A DNA stretch of 64,000 nt from Heliocidaris erythrogramma. Lineage: Eukaryota; Echinodermata; Echinoidea; Camarodonta; Echinometridae. Positions 21,075 through 64,000 of the stretch are shown here, piece after piece. The stretch covers positions 48,488,873-48,552,872 of the forward strand of contig CM046856.1 of NCBI GenBank assembly GCA_025617745.1. The letters are read 5' to 3'. The translations under genes and the position numbers were made by a program. Every line of letters begins with the position of its first letter. Within the stretch, counting starts at the first letter, position 1. The notes below the pieces were generated by a model that was not told the origin of the DNA, ran no database searches, and worked only from the letters and a program-made list of their open reading frames with translations.

Positions 21075-22372
21075 AAGTTTGAAGTTTATTTGTTCCACAT
21101 TCCACATTTACATCGAAACAATTTTTCAGAAGTTATTTTTCAAGCATAACTGTCAATTTCAAAGGAACTCAAATCAAGTATAATGTACAGTAAATAGGTA
21201 AAAAGTTTGAGAAATATATAAACGACTTGCAAAAGAGGAAATATGTAAAATGTGGGGAGCCTAAATAAAAAGCATTGCTTGTAAATGATTAGGCTCCCGT
21301 ATAAAGTAATTCTGATTTGGATGCAATGAAAAGGGGGGACGGACTAGAAATATCAGATTTATAAAACGTACACGGAGAGCAAAGCTCAGAATATGAAGTA
21401 AAGAAATGAAAAGACGAAAGAGAAGAAGAAGAAAGAAAGAAAAAAGGAAAATAAGATGAAGAAAAGAAAAAGAGAAAATGAAAAAAAGCAAAAGAAGGAG
21501 AAGAAAAATTTGTAAAGACATGACAGTGTTACACAAGCAAAGTCTATGTGACCACCTGTACGATCCAACAAGATATGAATATTCATACATACATGTACTT
21601 ACTTAAGAGGTAACACCTTAGCTTCCGTTTAAAAGAATTGTTGGAGGGGCTACCAACTAGTTCGTTATTCAGGCTGTTCCAGAATTTGGGTCCAGTAAAG
21701 GTGATTGTTTTGTTTGCGAAAACGGTGCGAGTTCGGGGGAGGTGAAAATGGTTTGTTTGCCTAGTTGGATAGGAATGTATAGCATTATTGCGTTGAAAAA
21801 TAGGGACGAAAGCATCTGGTAAATTACCTTTCGAGAGTTCATACATAAATATTCCAACATTATACAAGTACAAGTCAGATATCTTAAGGATGTTACAATT
21901 ATAGAAAAGTTCATTTGTATGTGCACGAAATCCAACATTATTTACTATTCTAATAACCCGTTTTTGTACAACTTCAATTTTGTCAATTATGGTTATAGAA
22001 CAATTTCCCCATGCAAGTATACAATAATTAAGATAAGGCAAGATCAGGGCAGAATAGAGTATAAGCATAACATGAGGAGGTACAAAAGGTTTCAACTTGT
22101 TCATTACACCTGGATTACGTGATAACAGTTTACATAGGCAATCAATTTGAACCTTCCATGTTAGTCTAGTGTCTATAAAAACACCCAGAAATTTGGTAGA
22201 TTCAACCTGGGCAATATTTTTATTGTTAATTTGTATATTACCTGGTAGGGATGATATAGAATTACTAAATAACATGAAATTTGTTTTATTTATATTGAGC
22301 GACAATTTGTTAGCTTGAATCCAGTCAGAAACGCATTTTAATTCAGTGTTTACGATGAGACACTCATTTGGA
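21075..22372 (-). mobile_element. 5'-truncated jockey-superfamily LINE, partly intact frame
   Basis: Minus-strand open frame from about 22372 to 21583 without a stop. It begins with NPNECLIVNTELKCVSDWIQ and ANKLSLNINKTNFMLFSN, continues through TKFLGVFIDTRLTWKVQI and SALILPYLNYCILAWGN, and ends with TFTGPKFWNSLNNEL...SFKRKLRCYLLSK. This is the palm/thumb and C-terminal part of a jockey/CR1-type reverse transcriptase. The catalytic DD-containing part is missing, so the insertion is 5'-truncated near 22372. The 3' untranslated part runs to about 21075 and ends with a CAAATAAACTTCAAACTTCAAA tail (read on the minus strand). The absence of stops or frameshifts over about 260 codons suggests a fairly recent insertion. 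Confidence 0.85.
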
Positions 22373-22800
22373 TTTTTATGACGTCTTTTTCAAGGTGATA
22401 CATGTTTATAATGCACTATTCCTCCATTGTCATGGCTAGTTATACGACAGATAATGTTATTTTGAAAAGCAAAATTGAGTTAGACCTCAAGACGTAAGGC
22501 TAATTACTAGAATTTGCCCTCCAATTTCCTTGGTTTGTGTCTTGATGGTTATCTCCATAGACCATTGAAAGTAGTTTGTTTGATACATCTGTCTACAGAC
22601 TTTAATTTTACACATGAAGTGTGAATGAGACAGTACTTCAGCCTATATTCTTGATGATTTTTTTTTTGAGGATTTTTGTTTCAGGTTATGTTCCTGACGA
22701 AAATGTCAAAATACACTTCATATAAATGCACCGTCATTGTGGAAGAAAATGGTTTGAAAGTGAGACTGGATAATCAGATAATATCCAACCATGATCCAAC
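22373..22800. other. Intergenic DNA, one weak exon-like segment
   Basis: TTTTTGTTTCAG at about 22673-22684 resembles a splice acceptor and is followed by an open stretch containing KCTVIVEENGLKVRLDN. There is no donor before the GA repeat and no family match, so it is noted without a call. Confidence 0.3.
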
Positions 22801-35680: not shown

Positions 35681-36002
35681 CTTTTGTGTAATTCTCATCA
35701 ATTATTTGCTCTATGTTATATTTATTAGGCCAGTCAACCCAATGCATCTTCTAAAACATTACAAAATGTGTTTTTTTTTTAAATTGTGCTTTAGATGAAA
35801 ACAAGATTGTTTGTTTTTATTTTAATTTTGCATGGACCGATAGAGAATAATGAGAGAGTGGGATAATAACTGAAGTGTTGAAGTAGAGAGAGAGAGAGGG
35901 GGGGGGGGGCAGCGAAAACCTCATAGGTGCACTTAATAAGCGTTTGTCAAAAAAGATTGAAGCCGCGAAATATCCTACATAATTATGATATAAGAGTGAC
36001 AG

Positions 36003-36300
36003 TAGAGGTGTCGTGGTCAAGTGGATACGTCACGGGACTGTGGATCACATGGTTCGCGGTTCAAGTCCCGCCGCGGCACTAATGTCCTTTGGCAAGATAT
36101 TAATCTACATTTGCCACTCTCCACCCAGGTGTAGTAAATGGGTACGTGGTAGGAATTTATTCCTTGAATGTTTTCAGCGCCTTAGGGCAGCACGGCTAAA
36201 GCCAGGTAATAGTAGCACTTTGTAGGCGCGTTGAGCATCCCCTGGGATGGATATCTGCGCAATATAAATGTAGCTATTATTATTATTATTATACCAAGGA
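36003..36300 (+). mobile_element. tRNA-derived SINE with (ATT)n tail
   Basis: The head 36008-36080 is tRNA-like: A-box region GTGGTCAAGTGG, B box GGTTCAAGTCC, and ends GTGTCG/CGGCAC that can pair as an acceptor stem. The body has TTTGCCACTCTCCACCCAGGTG and TGGTAGGAATTTATTCC. The tail is GCGCAATATAAATGTAGC followed by (ATT)n. The tail resembles the 3' end of the L2-like LINE at 17.1 kb (GCGCTAGATAAAAATG...(ATT)n), suggesting that a related LINE mobilised it. Confidence 0.85.
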
Positions 36301-42776: not shown

Positions 42777-44555
42777 CTTTCACCACGATGAACCTCTTCC
42801 TAACCAAGTAATGAAAATAGCCATACATGTATTTACACATATGGATGTAATACGTTTCATTCCGATCTGTTTGGAGCTATATTGGAAAGAAGAGCGTTTT
42901 TTATCCCCTTACACCCATTGAGTCCGCCTCGAGAAATGATTATAGGCAGGTATTCAATGGCGCACCGCTTGCTAAGACTAACACCTAACACGTCAAGGGA
43001 GCGGACAGTTTGACATCTCTGGCCAAGATGCCTGTCAGGAAGGAGGCTTTTTAATTTCTATCGCAAATAGTTTCCCCCCTGTGTAATTCCGCTGCAAATT
43101 CGGAGATGTGAAGACACTTAATGCCATTTTTATTTGCTTTCCGCGGAATCTATTTATTTTACCTTTCTTCAAGGGGATTATTCAGAAATATTTCTGGGGA
43201 AGAGAAGCTGCTGATATTACAGTACCATACAGTTTAAAATATGCTACAAGCATGACTCACAAATAACATTTTCTGAGAGAAGTTTTCCATAATATGCAAG
43301 TTCATAATTACAACACTCGTGTCAAAATCAAAGAAGAAAAGTAATTTTTTGCGGTCCAAATTCAGTTTTAATATAGATATGTAGGCGGTTTAAACTTCCT
43401 ATAGATCTGAGAAGTTTCATAGTGTATATTCTATGATTAAAATATCTCATAAGTTTTACCCATGCTTAAAAATATAGGTTGTGCTGCCTAGGCAAGAAAA
43501 TGTATTTACGTGTAAATGTTTCATTTCGTAGCTATCCCAGCTTTTGTTTGCAATGTCATTCCGAATATATATGGTTTCATGTATTCGTCACTCACGACAA
43601 TATAACATACAGGCATGCAGGGCGTTTCTTTCATTTTTATATACAGAGGAGACGTAACGTAATGATATCCAGTGTAAATATTGCACTTTTTGGATTACAG
43701 ATGCCTTTTCCACTGCTTTGAAATTTAATCAAGTCCTGCGAGGAATAATGCGATAAAAGATTTTGACAACGTGGATATCACGTGGTCATCCTAAACAAGC
43801 CAATGAGAACGGCTTCCCCTCAAAAGTGGTTACACAAGATTTCATTGAGCACACATATTTCCTCGTACAATGAGAGTGATTCAGGGGCTTGTTTGTTATA
43901 TTTGTTGCAAGATGAATAGTCAGCTCCATGGAAACGTACTTCATTTGTCACTTAGAATCATGACAATAACACCAGGAAAATCACGTTTCACTTGTGCTAC
44001 CTTAGTGAATATTTTATGAAAATTCATTTTTGATGAGTTAAACAGCCGTGTTAATCTCACTTACAAGTAATATAATCTAGGTTAACGACGCTGGGTTTTA
44101 TTCGTTGTCGTTAAAATAGGATTGGCACATTCATGAAAGAGAAAATAAAATGTAATAATTTGAAGTGCAAACTTGTGGGAGTGGAATCACGAACAAAAAT
44201 GCAGCATTTATCCGAGATCATTATGACACGACAAGGAATATTTCTTGTGATGATAATGGACGAATTCTATTACGCTTGTCTAACTTCAATCTTGCTTTTA
44301 ACGGGATGTACATGCTTTATGAATACAAATAAAGATATATTCTGCAAATGTTTTGATGGAGTCTTTACACAAAAACATGTAGAAAAAGTCATCTGTTACT
44401 AAATAATGAGTTCGTGTTTTTGAAAAGTTTGAAACAACATAAAAAATACAATATGGCACGAAAAAAGAGGCATGATAACGAAGCTTTTTCGACCTGCACT
44501 CATCAGGTTATCACGCAGGTATATAACAAATTACTCGAAATGAACTATATTATAC
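42777..44555. other. Intergenic DNA, no gene seen
   Basis: AT-rich DNA with no supported coding exon. Frames at 43479-43721 and 44133-44402 have no recognisable domain. Confidence 0.5.
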
Positions 44556-44560
44556 TCGAT

Positions 44561-44968
44561 GAACCCGGACGCAACCCGGACGCCGTAATTTCAGAACAAT
44601 CGCAAAGCTTGGACGAACTCCTTCAGCGGTTGGCTGATCACATTAAACAACACGTCCCTTCGACTATTCAGAACCGTACAACCAATGAGCGCACGCAGCC
44701 CGCCCGTGCCTGCAAATCTGAAATGCACGCTAACAGACCAAAGATAGCCAAATGCGATTCAGCGATTGGTCTCCATTTGCTGAACAATCCAGCTTGCGCA
44801 CAAAGCTATGCCGACGATCAATTCTCAATTATGTCCCGGGCCAGAAGCGCAGCGCATTTACGCTTTCTGAAAGCCGCCTACATTCAATCGCACGAACCCC
44901 TTCTGTGCGGACAAAAGGAGTTCGTCCAAGCTTTGCGATTGTTCTGAAATTACGGCGTCCGGGTTCAT
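44561..44968 (+). pseudogene. Penelope-like GIY-YIG fragment with inverted 3' copy
   Basis: A frame open from 44414 to a stop at 44945-44947 contains from about 44624 QRLADHIKQHVPST, then KCDSAIGLHLLNNPACAQSY, SIMSRARSAAHLRFLKAAYI and LLCGQKEFVQALRLF. This order resembles the C-terminal GIY-YIG endonuclease region of Penelope-like retroelements, where an arginine-containing helix precedes the histidine/glutamate-type motifs. The match is from memory and not from a search. The N-terminal half of that domain and the reverse transcriptase are absent. Positions 44573-44623 are a perfect 51-bp inverted copy of 44915-44965, joined exactly where the sense fragment starts. The frame upstream of 44624 is therefore accidental. 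Confidence 0.6.
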
Positions 44969-50709: not shown

Positions 50710-52655
50710 GTCATATTATGAGACGGCAATTAATTCAGCCATTGATGGAGCTTGTCATATGAAGATTGTGACCTCGAACCGGCCTCTATGTCCGAGCACG
50801 GTATCGTGATCGATCCACGACAAAACTAATAGAACGTCTGCGGGAAAAATAATGGATGTGATGGAAACAAAAATGAAAGGCGGGAAATGCACTTCAGTCC
50901 GCGCACTCCAGAGAGATAACTGACGTCAAGGAGAAGAATGAAGTTAAAGAGAAGTGTGAGAGGAATTATCCACAGACGGGATTTTGTTTGGCCCCTTCGG
51001 CAAACTGTTTAATTGAATAACAGATCAAACACTTGAATCAGCTTTATATGTAAATTGATAACATGATTATACATTTTACTGATGTGTGTACATGTTTATA
51101 AGGGAAAACATATTATATTCGTCTTATTTGATACAATGTACTAAGAACAAGGGATTTATTTTTTTTGATTAAATTCACGCCCTTGTCAGACTCCGATGCA
51201 TGAACTGAAGCTTAAAGGAAAGATTTTTTTGAAAATATACGTTTTTCGCAATACAGTTGCCAATAAGTATCTATCTCTTCAAATGTTACAAATTCTATAA
51301 TCCCAGGACTTGCAGTCATGTCACTCAAATTTGACACTTAAACGCTGTTGATCACTCGAAGACCCTGTGGTGGAGGTAGACGATATCACAATAACAACTG
51401 GGTGCAATAAACGAATTAATGTTAAACTTCATGCAGGGATATCAATGTCCGAGTCTTGCATTATACACATTGTGTTTGAAAGCCTAATTATATACAATCT
51501 GCAATAACAATACGACCAAAAATCAATCAGGTACACCTTCATTAGACGCCATATTTGCCCTTTAGAATTCAAGATGCCACGCTAGCATGAGTAACAGTCA
51601 TGCGTGGTTTCTGTTTCATTTGAAAAAATACGGTGGTATCCGTTCCTGTTTAAATAAAGGTTGTTTTAATCTTTTGTGCATTGCTGCAAATTTTGACAGA
51701 CTTTACACACAAGTCCCATAGAAGAGCATTTATGTGGCATACAAAGAGTTAAAAAGTCATTCAGATTGTAGAGGCGTGTGGCTGTTGTACAATGCCATGA
51801 TAATACATGTATGTTTAAACTTGAAATCATAATTCCTCTCCCAATATAATAGTACATAGTAGTATTATCCCCATTTCTTGTAATCTCTTCTGTGATCTGT
51901 TGAAACTATCTAAATGACATTTTGCCATTATGTAAAGAGTTTGCTAGTTCCTTCTGACATGTCATAAAATTTAAAGTTTATCATAGGCTCCCTTTTGAGC
52001 CTCTCCTTTGTCATGGTTTTACCCTTTAAAAAGTTTCATGGCTTCCCAAGTTTTGAAATTGTACCTTCTCGAGTTGGATATCGCGTTATAAACTTAGTCC
52101 GATATCGGTATAAAGCGGGATTTAAGAGCAAAATCTAGCCTGTAATGCTGGTGTATCATATCCACTTACTTTCTGCTCGCGGGCTCTTTATGGATAACCC
52201 CAGCTTGTTTTCACCGCCATTAACTTTCCATGATTTTGCCAGAGAGCAGCACATCACGTGACGTGATTGGATTAGGGTTATTGTATTTTCTCGCGTTAAC
52301 GTATTTATGTAGTCCACTGGTGCGTAGAGCAATCCTTTAATTGACAATTGCGAGGACCGCAAATCAGTATGGGACTAAAAGAGAAAAGGAAATCGATGAT
52401 GCGGCTATAGGATTACGATGAGTAGGATAGGAGTACCTGGGATGATGGGAAGGAACGGTGTATCCAGCTTTGTGAGAAGCGAGTGTGACGGCAGATATTA
52501 TGGTACCCTTGACAGATATGGTCCTGTACCCAAATCCACCAGGCATATTTTGGTGCTCTTCATGAGATAAACCATCGCCATAACTACACGAAGCCAGACT
52601 CGTTTCTTGTTCTATTTTATTAGTCCTTTCGCCACCTTTAATACTATTTTATTAA
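50710..52655. other. Intergenic DNA, no gene seen
   Basis: AT-rich DNA. TTAAAGGAAAG near 51212 resembles a T2/Kolobok end, but no matching partner was found. Frames at 52156-52546 (minus) are unsupported. Confidence 0.45.
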
Positions 52656-56745: not shown

Positions 56746-57499
56746 TGCTACGATAAGGGCAATAGTTGTTTGATGGGTTAGTCAAATCAAGGAAATGATA
56801 TCATTCATATCGATTTAAATGATGATTTTAATAATAAATAAAGTTTGAATATCATCAGTGTCATGCAAGTAGGGTAAAAAAATAGCGACGTGGTATTGAT
56901 CGTGGCATGATATTACGAGATATGAAAAAAGGGGTTACAAATATATTTCCTAGAATTTGTGTAAATTATTCATTTTACATTTGTGAAAACTTTTTGCACG
57001 GGGAGGTACAAATTACCTTTAAATGTGTGAAAAAATGTAGGAATTTCTCAATTTATTAAATTTTCAAAATTTGATTGAAGATCTTGCTGAAATCAATACA
57101 AAGCTAATTCCTGTAGAATTCAAGTCCATTTCCGTCACCACCATTGCCAACATCTCCACTACCACCATCACCACCAGCAACACCAGCAACACCATCTCCA
57201 CCATCATCATCATCATCATCATCATCATTAACACCACCAGCTTCATAATCATCGTCATCATCATCATCTTCATCATCATCGTCGTCGTCATGATCACCAC
57301 CACCATTACCACCATCACCAACATCATCACCACCATCATCGTCGTTATCACCACCACCACCACTACTACCATTAATACCACCACCACCATCAACACCATC
57401 AACATAATAAACACCGTCATCGCCATCATCACCATCACCATCACCACCACGGTTATCATCATGATCACTGATGACTCCTTTACCCTTATCTTCTTCCAG
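56746..57499. other. Upstream region or first intron of the three-exon gene
   Basis: AT-rich sequence then a 350-bp CAT/CAC trinucleotide repeat ending in the splice acceptor at 57499. No promoter or 5' exon could be identified. Confidence 0.45.
57120..57470 (+). repeat. (CAT/CAC)n trinucleotide repeat
   Basis: Imperfect CATCATCAT, CACCACCAC and ATCACCACC runs over about 350 bp. They give threonine/isoleucine frames on the plus strand and aspartate/glycine or valine/methionine frames on the minus strand, none regarded as genes. The repeat lies just before the splice acceptor of the coding exon at 57500. Confidence 0.9.
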
Positions 57500-57733
57500 G
57501 TATGGGAACAGTGTGCTCCACCCCAAGATCTACCACAGCCATTGAACCCATTTGTAACGAGACTCATTCCAAGGCGTTGCCAGAAATCAAACAAAGAGAG
57601 AAGAAGTCGACCAGCCAGAGAACCTTCCACCACCCCACCTCCCCCATCAAATTCCAGCAAGAAAGCTTTGATATTACTTCAGGTGATACCCCTCAAAAGA
57701 CGCAAGGGTCGGCCAGCTTAAGAGGGCGCACAG
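57500..57733 (+). CDS. Exon with start codon (residues 1-77 and first base of 78)
   Basis: It follows the acceptor TTATCTTCTTCCAG (to 57499) and begins GT then ATG at 57502, so at least one untranslated exon probably lies upstream. It ends GGGCGCACAG before the donor GTAGGC at 57734. The frame reads MGTVCSTPRSTTAIEPICNE and stays open to the donor. An alternative frame over the same DNA (57071-57721) is part of the repeat-derived open stretch and has no start of its own. Confidence 0.65.
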
Positions 57734-60700
57734 GTAGGCAATCCCTTTATAGAAGTTTACGAATAACCATGATTTGAATTCCAACTTGCTTCACTATTAC
57801 CTAGCATTCAAGTGCGGCGAACACCTGTGTTTTCTAAATAGAGAGAATTCGAGCGTCATTTTTTCACCAAAAATCTCTGACGTCCATGTCGGAATGCTTC
57901 CTATACAGGAATTCTATATCAATGGCTCTTTAAAGCGTTATTCACTTTCAAAGAATATAATTGTTGCAATACGTTCTCAAAAAAATATTTTATATTTCAG
58001 ATATTGAGACCTATGAGCTGTCTGTTAAAATAGTTTCTCAGTTTTATTGTGGGTATTTTATAATTTTATAGATTGATTTAATGGGCTAAATGCAGAGAGG
58101 AGATTATAACACTAAAATATATTCTCATATTCTATATGCTCATGTCCCCCTTTATTATTCAGTCAGCATGTATACATGACAAAAGTGGGAAAATATTTTA
58201 TTCGTATCACCGCCATTCATAGGAAAAGGAGAACTCTCTGTGGAGGAGAAGGGGGTCAAGAAGCCACGTCCTGTCAGTGGGTCTGCTTGGGAAGAACTGG
58301 TCAAAGACGACTTCTTCAAAGCTGGGGCAGCAGAGATCATGAGTTCATCGTCCAAAAAGAAGAATGAAGGTGCCAAACGGTTCGCATCCCCCACCCATAA
58401 TTGGTTCCGCAACCGCATCAAGTCTACCCCTGGCCGGATCGAGAGGAGAGAAGAGTTCAAACAGGCTCATAAAGTAACCCCCACGGGCAAGAAAGGCAAA
58501 GGTGAGCTCGATATTTAATCTTTGTTTCTTCATAAGGGAATAAGTATATTATTGTCATCACTAACCATAGCAAAGAAAAATAACATTACAAAATTTCTTC
58601 AAGTGCAAGGAATCATTTTCAAACCATTGTAATTTCGTTCAGCAATTGGGAAAAACATATTGTGGACGGCACCTTTTTACAAATCTGTTTTAAGTTTAAG
58701 AATCTTGATATGTGATGTAGGCTTTTTCCCAAATTGAATTTTAACAGCACTTTGATTACTTTTACATGTTCACAACTTATTGTTTGTAGTCTTTAATTAG
58801 CCTGCATGTCTGTGCCATTATGGATGAGAATGACTCTTATGGTATGGACGTGGGCGTGGTGAAGATGTGTGCGTATGTGCATGTGTACGTATGTGCGTGT
58901 GCGTGCGTGTGTGTGTGTGTGCGGTTCAGTGGCTGGTAATAACGTGCACTTTCGTCAAAACCGCGAACTGTGTAAATAATTATGTCAACATGTTCGATAC
59001 TGCACACAGGAATTGTTACAACGGTAAGACATTTTTTTTAAATGTAGTTTATCAGGACATCCACAGCTTGGACTATCAGCCCTATAACTACCCCCTGGGA
59101 TAACTATCTCCTAGGAAAAGTACTCCCTCCGCCCGGGCAATTATCCAACATGAAGGTTTAACATAGAATAACACAGAATATATAGTTCTAACACCGCAAA
59201 AATGCAGAGAAGGTAACAAGGAATCATTATCATGTTTTAATTCATACAGGTTTGTACCAGGCAGTATTTCAAGCTCCTTTTAACGCTGTTTATTTTCATT
59301 TAAAATGAAAGAAAAGAAGCTGCAAGTAGACCTTCCGTTTTGAACTAAATTGCTCAATGTGCGACTATAAGGCGATGCTCGCACTGAAAATGAAACATTA
59401 TTTTAAAGGCCAGCTCAATTGCCAACCAAGTTCATTCTAATGATGCGCCATCTATTGTTCATATTTAGAACATCCCTTGGATACGCGCTGAATATCGCCC
59501 TCTGCATTCAACAGACAAAAGGCCTCGTAACATTTCGTAAAACCATTCCAACACCTCACATTCTCCTCTTTCCCCACTTTCCTCACCACGTCAACTAACT
59601 GTGGTTTCAATTTTTATTATCATACATTGCTGCTCTTAGGACATAATGAAGTCACACTGAGTCAATATGTGCAGTCTCCTCCTTTTCAAGTGATTATTTA
59701 CTCATCAATCACAGTTGCAAGCTTGGAAAATAATTTAGTGTTTCTAGCTTTAATCAATGGTATTCATGTAACTATAAAGTAAGGAAATTCTGATATCGTG
59801 CCGTATTTTGTTCTGTTTGTCAAAGCTATCCAATGAAATCTTCTGTTTAGCGTGACCGAGGATGACTCTGTACGGGAGAGAGAGAGGGAGAGGGGGATAA
59901 AGGGAGACAAAGAAAGGGAGAGGGAGAGGGAGAGAGAGAGAGAGAGAGAGAGGAAAGAAAAATGTGACGTCTATCACATGAATGATTCATATATATATAT
60001 GCGTCGAAGTTTGCTAAGAAGAGGTTCAGGGCCTCGCTCAAGGGTAATAGATGTGGTAGTGCGGCTTCCCAGCGATACCTACAGAGAATGAGGAGTTACC
60101 ATGGTTACGACGGGGAAAGAGAGGATGATAGTTCATTTCTGTATTTTAATTAAACGGATTGAGTAATACATGTGTATTGTCAGATATTTAGGAACCATTA
60201 CCAGCTTAGGATTATACACAAGAACGATGCACTGATAAAGTAAAGAATACAATACGAGATATGATAAGCAGAAATAATAAATAATAAAATAAAAATAAAC
60301 ATATCTCTGTTTAGGGGGATATCTGACCATAATCATATAAAATTGACACTGTTAATACTTGGATAAATCACACACATGGATTATCTGCTATGCAAATTTT
60401 ACATTAAATAATCATGGTAGTATAAGAAGTCGTCATTTCTCGGTCGTCCTCACACGAACTACATTATACGATATTGTACATTATAGACGTAAACCTGTTT
60501 GAATACATTTTGTCCAACTGAACAACCGTCCGGTTTAGATCTTCCTTGTATATTTTCATTACAAGATGACAATTTCTATATCGAAGGGAAAATTACACTT
60601 TGTGAAGTACTAGGATGGTAGAAATACTCATTGGCCCGTGTTCTGATCTCCAGTTTAACTTGAACCGCTGTCTGAAGTGTGCTTTAAACCCAGTCTAAAC

Positions 60701-62220
60701 CTGCCCTTTACACGGGAGTTTATCACATTCTGAACTCCGGTTTAACCTAAACTCCAGTGCCGTTTAGACTCTAAGCGTGGTTTAACTTTGGACAAAAATT
60801 TAGACTGCACCTGGGGGCGGTTTAAGTCCGGTTTAACTTAGACTGGAGTTTAAGTTTAACCGGAGTTCAGAATAGGGGTCATTTAGTCTAATATTCAGGT
60901 AATATATCGTAGGACAATGCAGTGTTTCGGAAATACAACTTTTACAAGGACACAATCATGCATACCCTACCCCCCCCCCCCCCGCAATAACAATGGCTGC
61001 GATTGATAACATTCAAGTAGTAGATACTATGCTAATTAGACAAGGAATAATGCTCTCCAGTTGCCTAGCGACGGAGGGGCTCGGGGACACATTGTCCCCT
61101 CCCAATCGAATGGTGAAAAAAAAGAGAAAATGAGAAAAAGGGCCAGAAAGAGAGATAGAGAAAAAAAAAGGGGGGGGGGGGCAATGTGAAAAGTATGCCC
61201 CCTCCCATATTCTCCCCTCACTCTGGCATTTCATCCACCTGATATTTCTGCCCCACCCCCATGACATTGACAGTGCACCATCAATGGCTTAACTCATTTG
61301 TGCGGCAGTATCGCTCTCAAAACATAGTCTAAAACACCGCTCACTTATATCATTTGGCATTTCCAAGAAGAAAAGCACGGTGGGACTTATCAGCTTAACT
61401 CTTCTACTCCTCTATTATGATGTAAGGCTGGATATCGGGTGTGCATATGCAAATGAGTTCAAATTGGCGCCATTCGCCGTATGCTTTGAGATTGAATTTA
61501 ATATCTGAGACGCTATTGTATATATGGAAGGGCCTCATTTTGTTTTAGTATTGTGGCGTCACTTTATGCTCTATTTCCAGATGAAAGAATTTGATTAATA
61601 TACCTTCCAAGGCTATGTTTTTCTCAAAACAAAGGGGGTTGATCTGCTTTAAAGTAAAAACTTTGGTAGCTATGACATACTTCACAGGGAGGATCAAAAC
61701 AGCACACGTAAAAATAGTTGGTAATCACTAGCATTATGCGTCAACTATTGACATGATTGAGTTGTTATTCCTTTATTTGTTTTTAAAAAAGAATCTGAAT
61801 AAATTCCTCACAGGTGCCCATTGAGCTCACCTGGAGCGAGTGTGGCAAATGCAGATTAAAATTTTACCATAGAACGACAGTGTGAGGTCAGGGATTCGAA
61901 TCCCGTACCTTGTGGTACAGTTAGGGGACTTATACACTAGACCACAACACCTCTATCATGATTATATCATTGCAATTACATGTACTACAATATCTGCAAC
62001 GTGACAGAAAATGGTGGGGAGGTACTTTTGGTAAATGACATTTCTATTGAATTAATATGAAAACGATGTGGGTTTTTAACATAAAATGTGCCAGATATGA
62101 TTTCTGACTCTGTTCCCAGCTGTGTCAAAAGCTGAAGAGTGCGAGGAAAGCGAACGGAGAAATCCTTACCAAATTAGAGACAGTTTTATCCCAACTTTGC
62201 ACCGGTTTCGCGCTTGCTGA
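57502..62220 (+). CDS. Three-exon gene, basic 203-residue myristoylation-type protein
   Basis: Joining 57502-57733, 58223-58501 and 62120-62220 gives an open frame of 203 codons with consistent phase-1 junctions (Gly78 and Ala171 are split codons). The start MGTVCS fits the N-myristoylation consensus (Gly2, Ser6), with Cys5 a possible palmitoylation site, so membrane attachment is likely. Residues 30-75 are Ser/Thr/Pro/Gln-rich and probably disordered. Residues 95-120 (SGSAWEELVKDDFFKAGAAE) may form a helix. Residues 123-170 are strongly basic (SSKKKNEGAKR, FRNRIKS, ERREEFK). The tail is RRNPYQIRDSFIPTLHRFRA then C. AATAAA at 62286 follows the stop. I do not recognise the family. Exon skipping or further alternative exons cannot be excluded. 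Confidence 0.65.
58223..58501 (+). CDS. Second coding exon (residues 78-170)
   Basis: Acceptor CCGCCATTCATAG (to 58222), donor GTGAGC at 58502. It encodes KGELSVEEKGVKKPRPVSGS, AWEELVKDDFFKAGAAEIMS, then a lysine/arginine-rich stretch ending KVTPTGKKGK. Codon use and the GC content, higher than the flanking introns, support coding. Intron 1 is 489 bp. Confidence 0.75.
58855..58921 (+). repeat. (GT)n-rich microsatellite
   Basis: GTGTGCGTATGTGCATG... then an uninterrupted GTGTGTGTGTGTG. Cysteine/valine frames here are artefacts. Confidence 0.85.
59874..59952. repeat. (GA)n microsatellite
   Basis: GAGAGAGAGAGGGAGAGG-type run in intron 2. Confidence 0.9.
60632..60881. mobile_element. 250-bp fold-back element with repeated GGTTTAAC motifs
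   Basis: GGCCCGTGTTCTGATCTCCAG at the left is an imperfect complement of CCGGAGTTCAGAATAGGGGTC at the right. CTCCGGTTTAACCTAAACTCCAG and shorter GGTTTAACTT/AAGTTTAACC units recur about eight times in both orientations. Confidence 0.7.
61800..61965 (-). mobile_element. tRNA-derived SINE, minus strand
   Basis: Read on the minus strand: GAGGTGTTGTGGTCTAGTG (A-box region), GGGATTCGAATCCC (B box), then TTTGCCACACTCGCTCCAGGTG and GAGGAATTTATTC, the same order as in the plus-strand copy at 36 kb. The 3' tail is missing, so the copy is truncated within intron 2. Confidence 0.75.
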
Positions 62221-62291
62221 CGCAGTTTATTCGCAATAATCTCATCGTCCCCGAATTGTTTTTCGCGTGACCTTTACCATAATTCAATAAA
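62120..62291 (+). CDS. Terminal exon (residues 171-203) with stop and poly(A) signal
   Basis: Acceptor TTTCTGACTCTGTTCCCAG (to 62119). In the phase required by exon 2 it reads AVSKAEECEESERRNPYQIR, DSFIPTLHRFRAC and TGA (62218-62220). AATAAA lies at 62286-62291. The first-frame reading is also open to a TAA but does not fit the exon 2 phase. Intron 2 would be 3.6 kb. Confidence 0.6.
62286..62291 (+). promoter_or_regulatory. Polyadenylation signal AATAAA
   Basis: It lies 66 nt after the predicted stop at 62218-62220 and supports this exon being terminal. Confidence 0.55.
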
Positions 62292-62695
62292 GATCGAAAG
62301 CTACTACATAGGGCCAGGGTTTGAAATAAAATTTAAGACTGATTATACGAATTATTACGCTTCTCATGGATCAGCAAAGGAAAGAAATCTACATCCCCTG
62401 ACGATTCACTGTAGTTAGATGAATTATGGGATGTTTAGTGCTATCTTTAGACGATGATCGAGCTTGAAGAAACGCCCCGTTTTTTTAACTTTATTCCCTC
62501 CGAATAACATTACCCGCTCTTTAAATATAATTATCTTACAGTGAATTGTTGCGCCGTCGTAACGAACTGGAGCAATAGAGAGATTGGATGGTGAGAAAAG
62601 TGGACCAAGTACGATTCACGACTGTTTTCCTATAGTTTCTCTTCCCCGATCTCCCCGTCTCTTCCATTTTGATGAGCACCTCATCATATTTTGTT

Positions 62696-62988
62696 GGGGT
62701 AAACTCGCTAGTCCTAAGGACCGCTATTCATAAGGACAACTTATTCATAAGGACCGCTATCCATAACGCGTGACTAAATGAATAGCGGTTTTGTAAGAAT
62801 AGTGGTCCTTCTAAATAGCGAGCAAACCATAGACAAATTACCTCGCTATACATAAGGACCTCCATTCATAAGGACCACTATTCATAAATATTCATAAGGA
62901 CCACTATTCATAAATATTCATAAGGACCGCTATTCATAAGGCGTGCTAAGTGAATAGCGGTCCTTATGAATAGCTAGCGGACCCGATT
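62696..62988. repeat. Fold-back/tandem cluster of CATAAGGACCGCTATT units
   Basis: CATAAGGACC(G/A)CTATTCATAA occurs at least six times (62714-62940) and its complement AATAGCGGTCCTTATG three times (about 62780, 62798, 62953). The outer ends GGGTAAACTCGCTAG and CTAGCGGACCCG are roughly complementary. It can form many alternative hairpins and is probably a MITE with expanded internal repeats. Confidence 0.75.
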
Positions 62989-63855
62989 TTATCCCCCCAT
63001 ACTCTGTTCTTCTTTATATCTCTTTGGCAATTGTATCTGCGCTGTGTGTGACACACATTTCAGCTAACTTCTCTGATTGGAAACTATGTTTGGAATGGAT
63101 GCGAACGTAACTTGCCACAATGCAACAAATGCCAGGAGTTTTTTCATGATTTGCCAGTCAACTAATCCATCATTTTGCATTAATCAATCACCAAGTAAAG
63201 TTATAGCAAGGTGGTCAAGATATGTTTTTATATTTATATGTACATTGCCTTCTGAAACAAAAACATCCCATTGTATATTTTATCTAGACCCCTAGCGTTC
63301 AATTAAACTTGACTTTAGCTGCGTATACTAATAATGGGAAGTCGTTATTGACGTCTCTTGTCATTGAGAGAGTAAATTAGTCTACCCTTCGCCATCACTT
63401 TATTAATATCCCTGCCTGTTCTGTCTCCAGACCCCATCCATTGTGTGTACTCATTGAGAATGCATTTTTGTACCACCATATACGTGTACACTTCGTAATG
63501 AACAGCCGTGCAAAAACATGAACAAAACAGAGACTGAGAGAGAATACAGGAAAACTAGGTGGAATAAAAAAGAAAAGAAAACATCAACTAATGCCTGGGA
63601 TGACCGAAAAAACAAGTTTCTGTATTAGACTCTCCTCATTAGCTGGTGATATAAATTAAAAAAAAAATAATTCAATATTAAAGCAAGAATATGAAAAAAG
63701 ATATGTATCTGCAAATCAATATCCATATGTATGCAAGCGAATGCCATTCTCTCGTTAGGATTACCACGTAGTACTTGTTCAATAATTGTGTTTTGCTTTA
63801 CGAAAGGAGTAGACAAAAGCTTGTGATAATTCTGTTTCTGCGAAACATTAAGATG
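62989..63855. other. Intergenic DNA downstream of the gene
   Basis: No supported coding frame. A 72-codon frame at 63077-63295 has no recognisable domain. Confidence 0.5.
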
Positions 63856-63857
63856 AC

Positions 63858-64000
63858 ACCCCCCCCCCCCCCCAAAAAAAAAAAAAAAACAACAACAACA
63901 ACAACAAACAAACACAACAACAACAAAAACAATACTAATATATACGTGATATCCTGCCACGAAAAGGAGAAAAGAAAGAGAGAGAGAGAGAGGGAGAGAG
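63858..64000. repeat. C run, A run, (AAC)n and (GA)n simple sequence
   Basis: C16 followed by A16, then AACAACAACA repeats to about 63930, and a GA microsatellite from about 63968 to the window end. Confidence 0.9.

Follow-up and report, generated by a model that had tools for sequence, protein, structure and literature searches.

A stretch of 64,000 nucleotides of Heliocidaris erythrogramma DNA, referred to below as the window, contains two firm coding exons of a genuine nuclear gene. The gene can be read from the raw sequence, and exons 1 and 2 are the parts of it that stand up. The preliminary description of this region proposed a three-exon gene for a small basic, probably myristoylated protein. 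Its coordinates, its AG/GT borders, the phase 1-1 join into 203 codons and the AATAAA after the stop are all reproduced from the window sequence. The borders lie at 57733|57734, 58222|58223, 58501|58502 and 62119|62120 and form the sole AG/GT combination within a few bases, and the join stays open over the 203 codons; the rebuilt coding sequence ends in a TGA at 62218-62220. The located parts of the gene are as follows.

57490..57499, + strand: 3' splice site (polypyrimidine tract and AG) before exon 1, acceptor score 9.28
57500..57733, + strand: exon 1, comprising 2 nt, the ATG, codons 1-77 and one further base; start MGTVCS
58223..58501, + strand: exon 2, encoding the very basic middle, net charge +11
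58502..58518, + strand: alternative end, in which the exon 2 donor is read through to TAA 58516-58518, giving a shorter protein that ends in GELDI
62120..62220, + strand: proposed exon 3, codons 171-203 and stop; candidate
62286..62291, + strand: AATAAA, which may be a poly(A) signal provided exon 3 is genuine

Statistical support for exons 1 and 2

Candidate exons were defined as AG-ORF-GT segments of 80 to 500 nt on either strand, with a minimum score of 2 for each splice site. The splice-site matrices and the human codon table used for scoring were not derived from the data at hand. Exon 2 ranks first among the 427 candidate internal exons of the window, with a score of 38.2. Exon 1 scores 29.3; above it stand exon 2, a truncated version of exon 2 and candidates that overlap a CAT/CAC microsatellite, and nothing else. 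Among the 365 internal candidates clear of any microsatellite, only exon 2 and its truncated version stand higher. By comparison, the best of 327 non-microsatellite candidates outside 57.4-58.6 kb scores 18.1, the best in the reversed window 18.9, and the best in the complemented window 26.2, the last lying in the same microsatellite. With low-triplet-entropy candidates left out, just two pieces of a retrotransposon score above exon 2 over the surrounding 200 kb.

The donors at 58501 and 57733 rank first and third of 3270 GT sites, and the acceptors at 57499, 62119 and 58222 rank second, about 25th and about 73rd among the 3511 AG sites of the + strand. The coding frame was picked separately for exons 1 and 2, and both frames fit the phase. 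Judged by coding content only, with 2000 shuffles each, exon 2 reaches P=0.002, exon 1 0.12 and exon 3 0.17; the support for exon 1 therefore comes mainly from its phase and from splice sites that are both excellent.

A dynamic-programming gene finder applied to 57481-64000 returns exactly the three exons of the preliminary description and scores them at 33.4; block-wise dinucleotide shuffles, 200 in number, average 1.6 and never go beyond 10.0. Scored as 116 tiles, the window reaches no more than 19.9 outside the gene region, the value of a single ORF at 44453-44947. Whichever of the three codon tables and two backgrounds is used, the best model includes exon 1 and the beginning of exon 2. 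With codon preferences taken from the genome itself, the score is 16.6, where 200 shuffles reach at most 6.7, and the model keeps exon 1 and extends exon 2 to 58518. These preferences derive from 22 chaperonin segments totalling 1592 codons, obtained from 70 matches that yielded 30 loci, eight of which were dropped (four with internal stops, three near-duplicates and one intronless copy).

GC content reaches 50% in exon 1 and 52% in exon 2, versus 33% and 39% in the introns, and GC3 is 0.547 in the joined coding sequence versus 0.537 in chaperonin exons of the same genome. Three-base periodicity in the joined coding sequence is marginal (P=0.05), and synonymous codon preference under the genome table is unfavourable in exon 1 (-3.2) and exon 3 (-4.2), with a slight gain in exon 2 (+2.2).

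Several competing models were set aside. Microsatellite "exons" at 57117-57499 lift the + strand score to 40.5 and displace the start proposed earlier; their coding score is untrustworthy because the segment is a CAT/CAC repeat. Minus-strand models scoring 27.0 to 27.6 in this region are built on the same microsatellite, and once it is masked the minus strand scores 2.8 from 57479 on and no higher than 10.0 on longer segments. A further exon of 44 nt, at 61069-61112, appears in the best model without an exon penalty and in a second-best model (31.1 versus 33.4); it falls within low-complexity sequence of intron 2 and was not adopted. Scans of the window for tRNA genes and Rfam families gave 0 matches each, and searches of Pfam and PDB with the next exon downstream yielded no name for a neighbour.

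Both ends of the gene and alternative readings

The two ends of the gene are less secure than its middle. While exons 1 and 2 score far above chance, the third exon of the proposed structure does not: its score is equalled in 24% of 300 shuffles (P=0.24), and 27 further tiles of the window, which overlap in part, include 13 that do as well. Of the 56 terminal candidates downstream, exon 3 scores best with the human codon table, and it falls out of the best model under genome codon preferences; a second frame through it is also open, to 62239. Exon 3, and with it the C-terminal tail, is thus an unproven, candidate part of the gene, given its chance-level score, the second open frame and its loss under genome codons. 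The AATAAA starts 66 nt past the exon 3 stop, and an AATAAA occurs within 75 nt after 8.7% of sampled + strand positions. It comes close to an even chance that the gene is real and ends elsewhere, at a different 3' exon, whether within the window or past its edge, or by reading on to TAA 58516-58518. The chance-level score of exon 3 favours such an end, as do the best models under genome codon preferences, which stop at 58518 within the window or, when downstream DNA is added, continue to exons at 69147 or 78430. On the other side, the exon at 62120 outranks the other terminal exons with the codon tables not built from this genome and has its AATAAA, and the alternative ends are weak as well; read-through to 58518 would bypass the highest-scoring donor on the + strand. 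A more radical reading, in which the arrangement arose by chance or is a decayed pseudogene that yields no functional product, appears highly improbable. The marginal periodicity and the unfavourable codon preference of exons 1 and 3 fit it, but the model scores exceed every shuffle under either source of codon preferences, the frames of exons 1 and 2 are open and phase-compatible, and no parent copy was found in the genome. A retrocopy is contradicted by the presence of introns.

At the 5' end, the preliminary description overlooked the strong acceptor at 57499, which lies two bases 5' of the ATG at 57502; the same place, 57490..57499, scores 6.6 as a donor. Because the acceptor ends two bases before the ATG, something upstream would be spliced to the ATG-bearing exon. 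An upstream exon, untranslated or coding and outside the located parts, is therefore implied, and ATG 57502 becomes uncertain as the initiator. If that exon is coding, exons 1 and 2 would be internal to a longer gene with its true start upstream, MGTVCS would not be an N-terminus and the protein would not be acylated. This longer gene is unlikely, though far from negligible. Beyond the very strong acceptor itself, it draws on the gene finder, which, with microsatellites masked and run from 40, 30 or 17 kb, links 57500 to segments at 44453-44904 and 50912-50955 with a score of 46.5. The same finder run from 45.5 kb or 50 kb onward, however, begins at 57502, and the ORF at 44453-44944 has only sub-threshold Pfam matches and resembles a mobile-element ORF. 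ATG 57502 also has a G at +4, which counts towards its being a start; a G at this position of the Kozak context favours Gly2 regardless of myristoylation.

Predicted properties and acylation of the product

The joined protein is hydrophilic and, on charge-hydropathy grounds, predicted to be mostly disordered. Its pI of 9.9 bears out the earlier description of a small basic product, its GRAVY is -1.08, and FoldIndex falls below zero in each of 11 sampled segments of 51 residues. An AlphaFold model of exon 2 alone has short helices, a mean pLDDT of 69 and a pTM of 0.24. The joined protein carries six S/T-P sites versus 2.5 expected (P=0.02), including proline-directed sites of the CDK type, S/T-P-x-K/R, of which there are three versus 0.5 expected (P=0.012). 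Six motifs in all were tried, the CDK-type motif among them, on the protein including exon 3.

Provided that ATG 57502 is the start, MGTVCS matches the MGxxxS/T myristoylation consensus. A PROSITE-type myristoylation pattern matches the joined protein only at residue 2. Since this loose pattern occurs on average 2.2 times anywhere in shuffled copies of the protein, only its position at residue 2 counts. The motif MGQICQ of the sperm hexokinase HK1S is documented as acylated twice, on Gly2 and on Cys5 (PMC4736023). Both proteins share the MG start and Cys5; Cys5 of HK1S is palmitoylated, and that of the candidate protein sits at the same place (PMC4736023). The candidate additionally has Ser6, in keeping with the usual MGxxxS/T consensus (PMC4736023). 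The likeness seen concerns the first residues, and acylation of the candidate is predicted from the motif.

MARCKS-type switch proteins offer a second comparison, with a possible myristate and a basic, disordered, phosphorylatable middle in common with the candidate. Proteins of this type carry a Phe-rich basic effector domain; no such domain was seen in the candidate, whose putative sites are instead proline-directed, and the joined protein has no match to MARCKS in Pfam.

Among the mechanisms considered, a membrane-tethered protein tuned by phosphorylation is the most likely, judging from sequence features. It depends on an unproven start codon, as the acceptor at 57499 ends just two bases 5' of that ATG. 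With ATG 57502 as the start, Gly2 would be myristoylated and Cys5 palmitoylated, and the protein would sit on the inner face of the membrane, held by the two lipids and by its basic middle. Proline-directed phosphorylation at the S/T-P and S/T-P-x-K/R sites may then loosen this hold, so that the overall behaviour would resemble a myristoyl-electrostatic switch.

Copy number, relatives and possible identity

The gene is apparently single copy. In the assembly the window occupies C4:48488873-48552872. A search of the genome (1.06 Gb, 26 contigs), performed exon by exon with seven candidates scored, finds at E<=0.001 only the three exons themselves, although a divergent paralogue could escape such a search. 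Raising the limit to E=10 adds three matches, with E values of 3.9 to 9.4, which is chance level. A mobile element or repeat gene was considered and rejected, no second copy having been found in the 1.06 Gb at E<=0.001.

The earlier remark that no known family suggests itself agrees with searches of Pfam, PDB, GTDB genomes and IMG/VR, in which no relative was found. In Pfam, the only match is DVNP at E=2.5, under its cut-off. In PDB, phmmer gives 0 matches at E<=10 with either the protein or exon 2, and Foldseek likewise gives 0 matches at E<=10, a weak test with a low-confidence model of exon 2. IMG/VR and GTDB genomes return 9, 75 and 183 pattern matches and no relative by tblastn; empty results in these two collections are expected for an animal gene. 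A literature search with words from the tail peptide found nothing related. Because PDB, which we take to contain urchin sperm axoneme proteins, gave no match, a known axonemal lining protein is a less likely identity.

In being short, basic, predicted to be disordered and composed of few exons, the candidate resembles single-copy animal genes that are uncharacterised and lack a Pfam family, and it may correspond to a gene that annotated urchin genomes already list without a name. Our tentative reading, at somewhat less than even confidence, is that of a real and ordinary, apparently single-copy, uncharacterised echinoderm gene whose product would be a small, basic, mostly disordered, dually acylated and switchable membrane protein. 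A stronger version, in which the gene is restricted to echinoderms and encodes a dually acylated disordered membrane protein with a cell-cycle-type kinase switch and no relative in described families, is improbable. If both the acylated N-terminus and the restricted range hold true, the gene would add another lineage-restricted membrane-tethered protein worth studying in urchin eggs or sperm; otherwise it would be an ordinary uncharacterised gene.

A separate observation concerns the COX1 of the same assembly, located on contig C24. It contains 11 internal TGA codons and zero stops under code 9, and residues 1-446 of its 447 align with mammalian COX1. Three of four AAA codons align with mammalian Asn and none with Lys, corresponding to the echinoderm reading and thus supporting an echinoderm source; flatworms share the reading of AAA as Asn, and the mammal-like COX1 speaks against a flatworm. 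COX1 is followed by tRNA-Arg.

Repeats in and beside the gene

Several repeats lie within intron 2, which separates exon 2 from the proposed exon 3 of the uncharacterised plus-strand gene, or directly downstream of the gene; one has a second copy elsewhere in the window.

60727-60873: inverted repeat, inside intron 2
61797-61970, plus strand: tRNA-like short repeat, copy 1, inside intron 2
35985-36162, minus strand: tRNA-like short repeat, copy 2
62704-62973: cluster of CTATTCATAAGGACC repeats with inverted arms, directly 3′ of the gene

The inverted repeat, with 32-nt arms that are 94% complementary and lie 83 nt apart, is perhaps a small foldback element. The two copies of the tRNA-like repeat share 72% identity, and the intronic copy contains a B-box-like GATTCGAATCC. 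ARAGORN and Rfam reported nothing at either copy. We take SINE to be the probable label for this repeat.

Coding-like sequence elsewhere in the window

Outside 57-58.6 kb, a region comprising exons 1 and 2 and the adjoining CAT/CAC microsatellite, the top coding signal of the window comes from a single ORF at 44453-44947. Pfam returned four matches to this ORF, none reaching the cut-off (best, PIN_8, E=0.02), and a PDB search with it gave no match at E<=1. The end of the ORF resembles mobile-element ORFs. A further Pfam match, also below the cut-off, marks a remnant:

21583-22389, minus strand: similar to the end of a reverse transcriptase (RVT_1, E=0.021)

Wider flanks

The following features lie beyond the window, in coordinates extended from it.

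78366-78609: strong exon encoding MRAGDSPPPG...KCKSATFNIDGYSYTI
about +89000 to +93000, downstream: retrotransposon in open pieces
about -58300 to -53900, upstream: exons in which Pfam recognises LDL-receptor class A domains

The exon at 78366-78609, 16 kb downstream of the gene, is probably the first coding exon of the next gene. It has no other genomic match at E<=1, and Pfam and PDB searches with it found no family. The retrotransposon is Ty3/gypsy-like.
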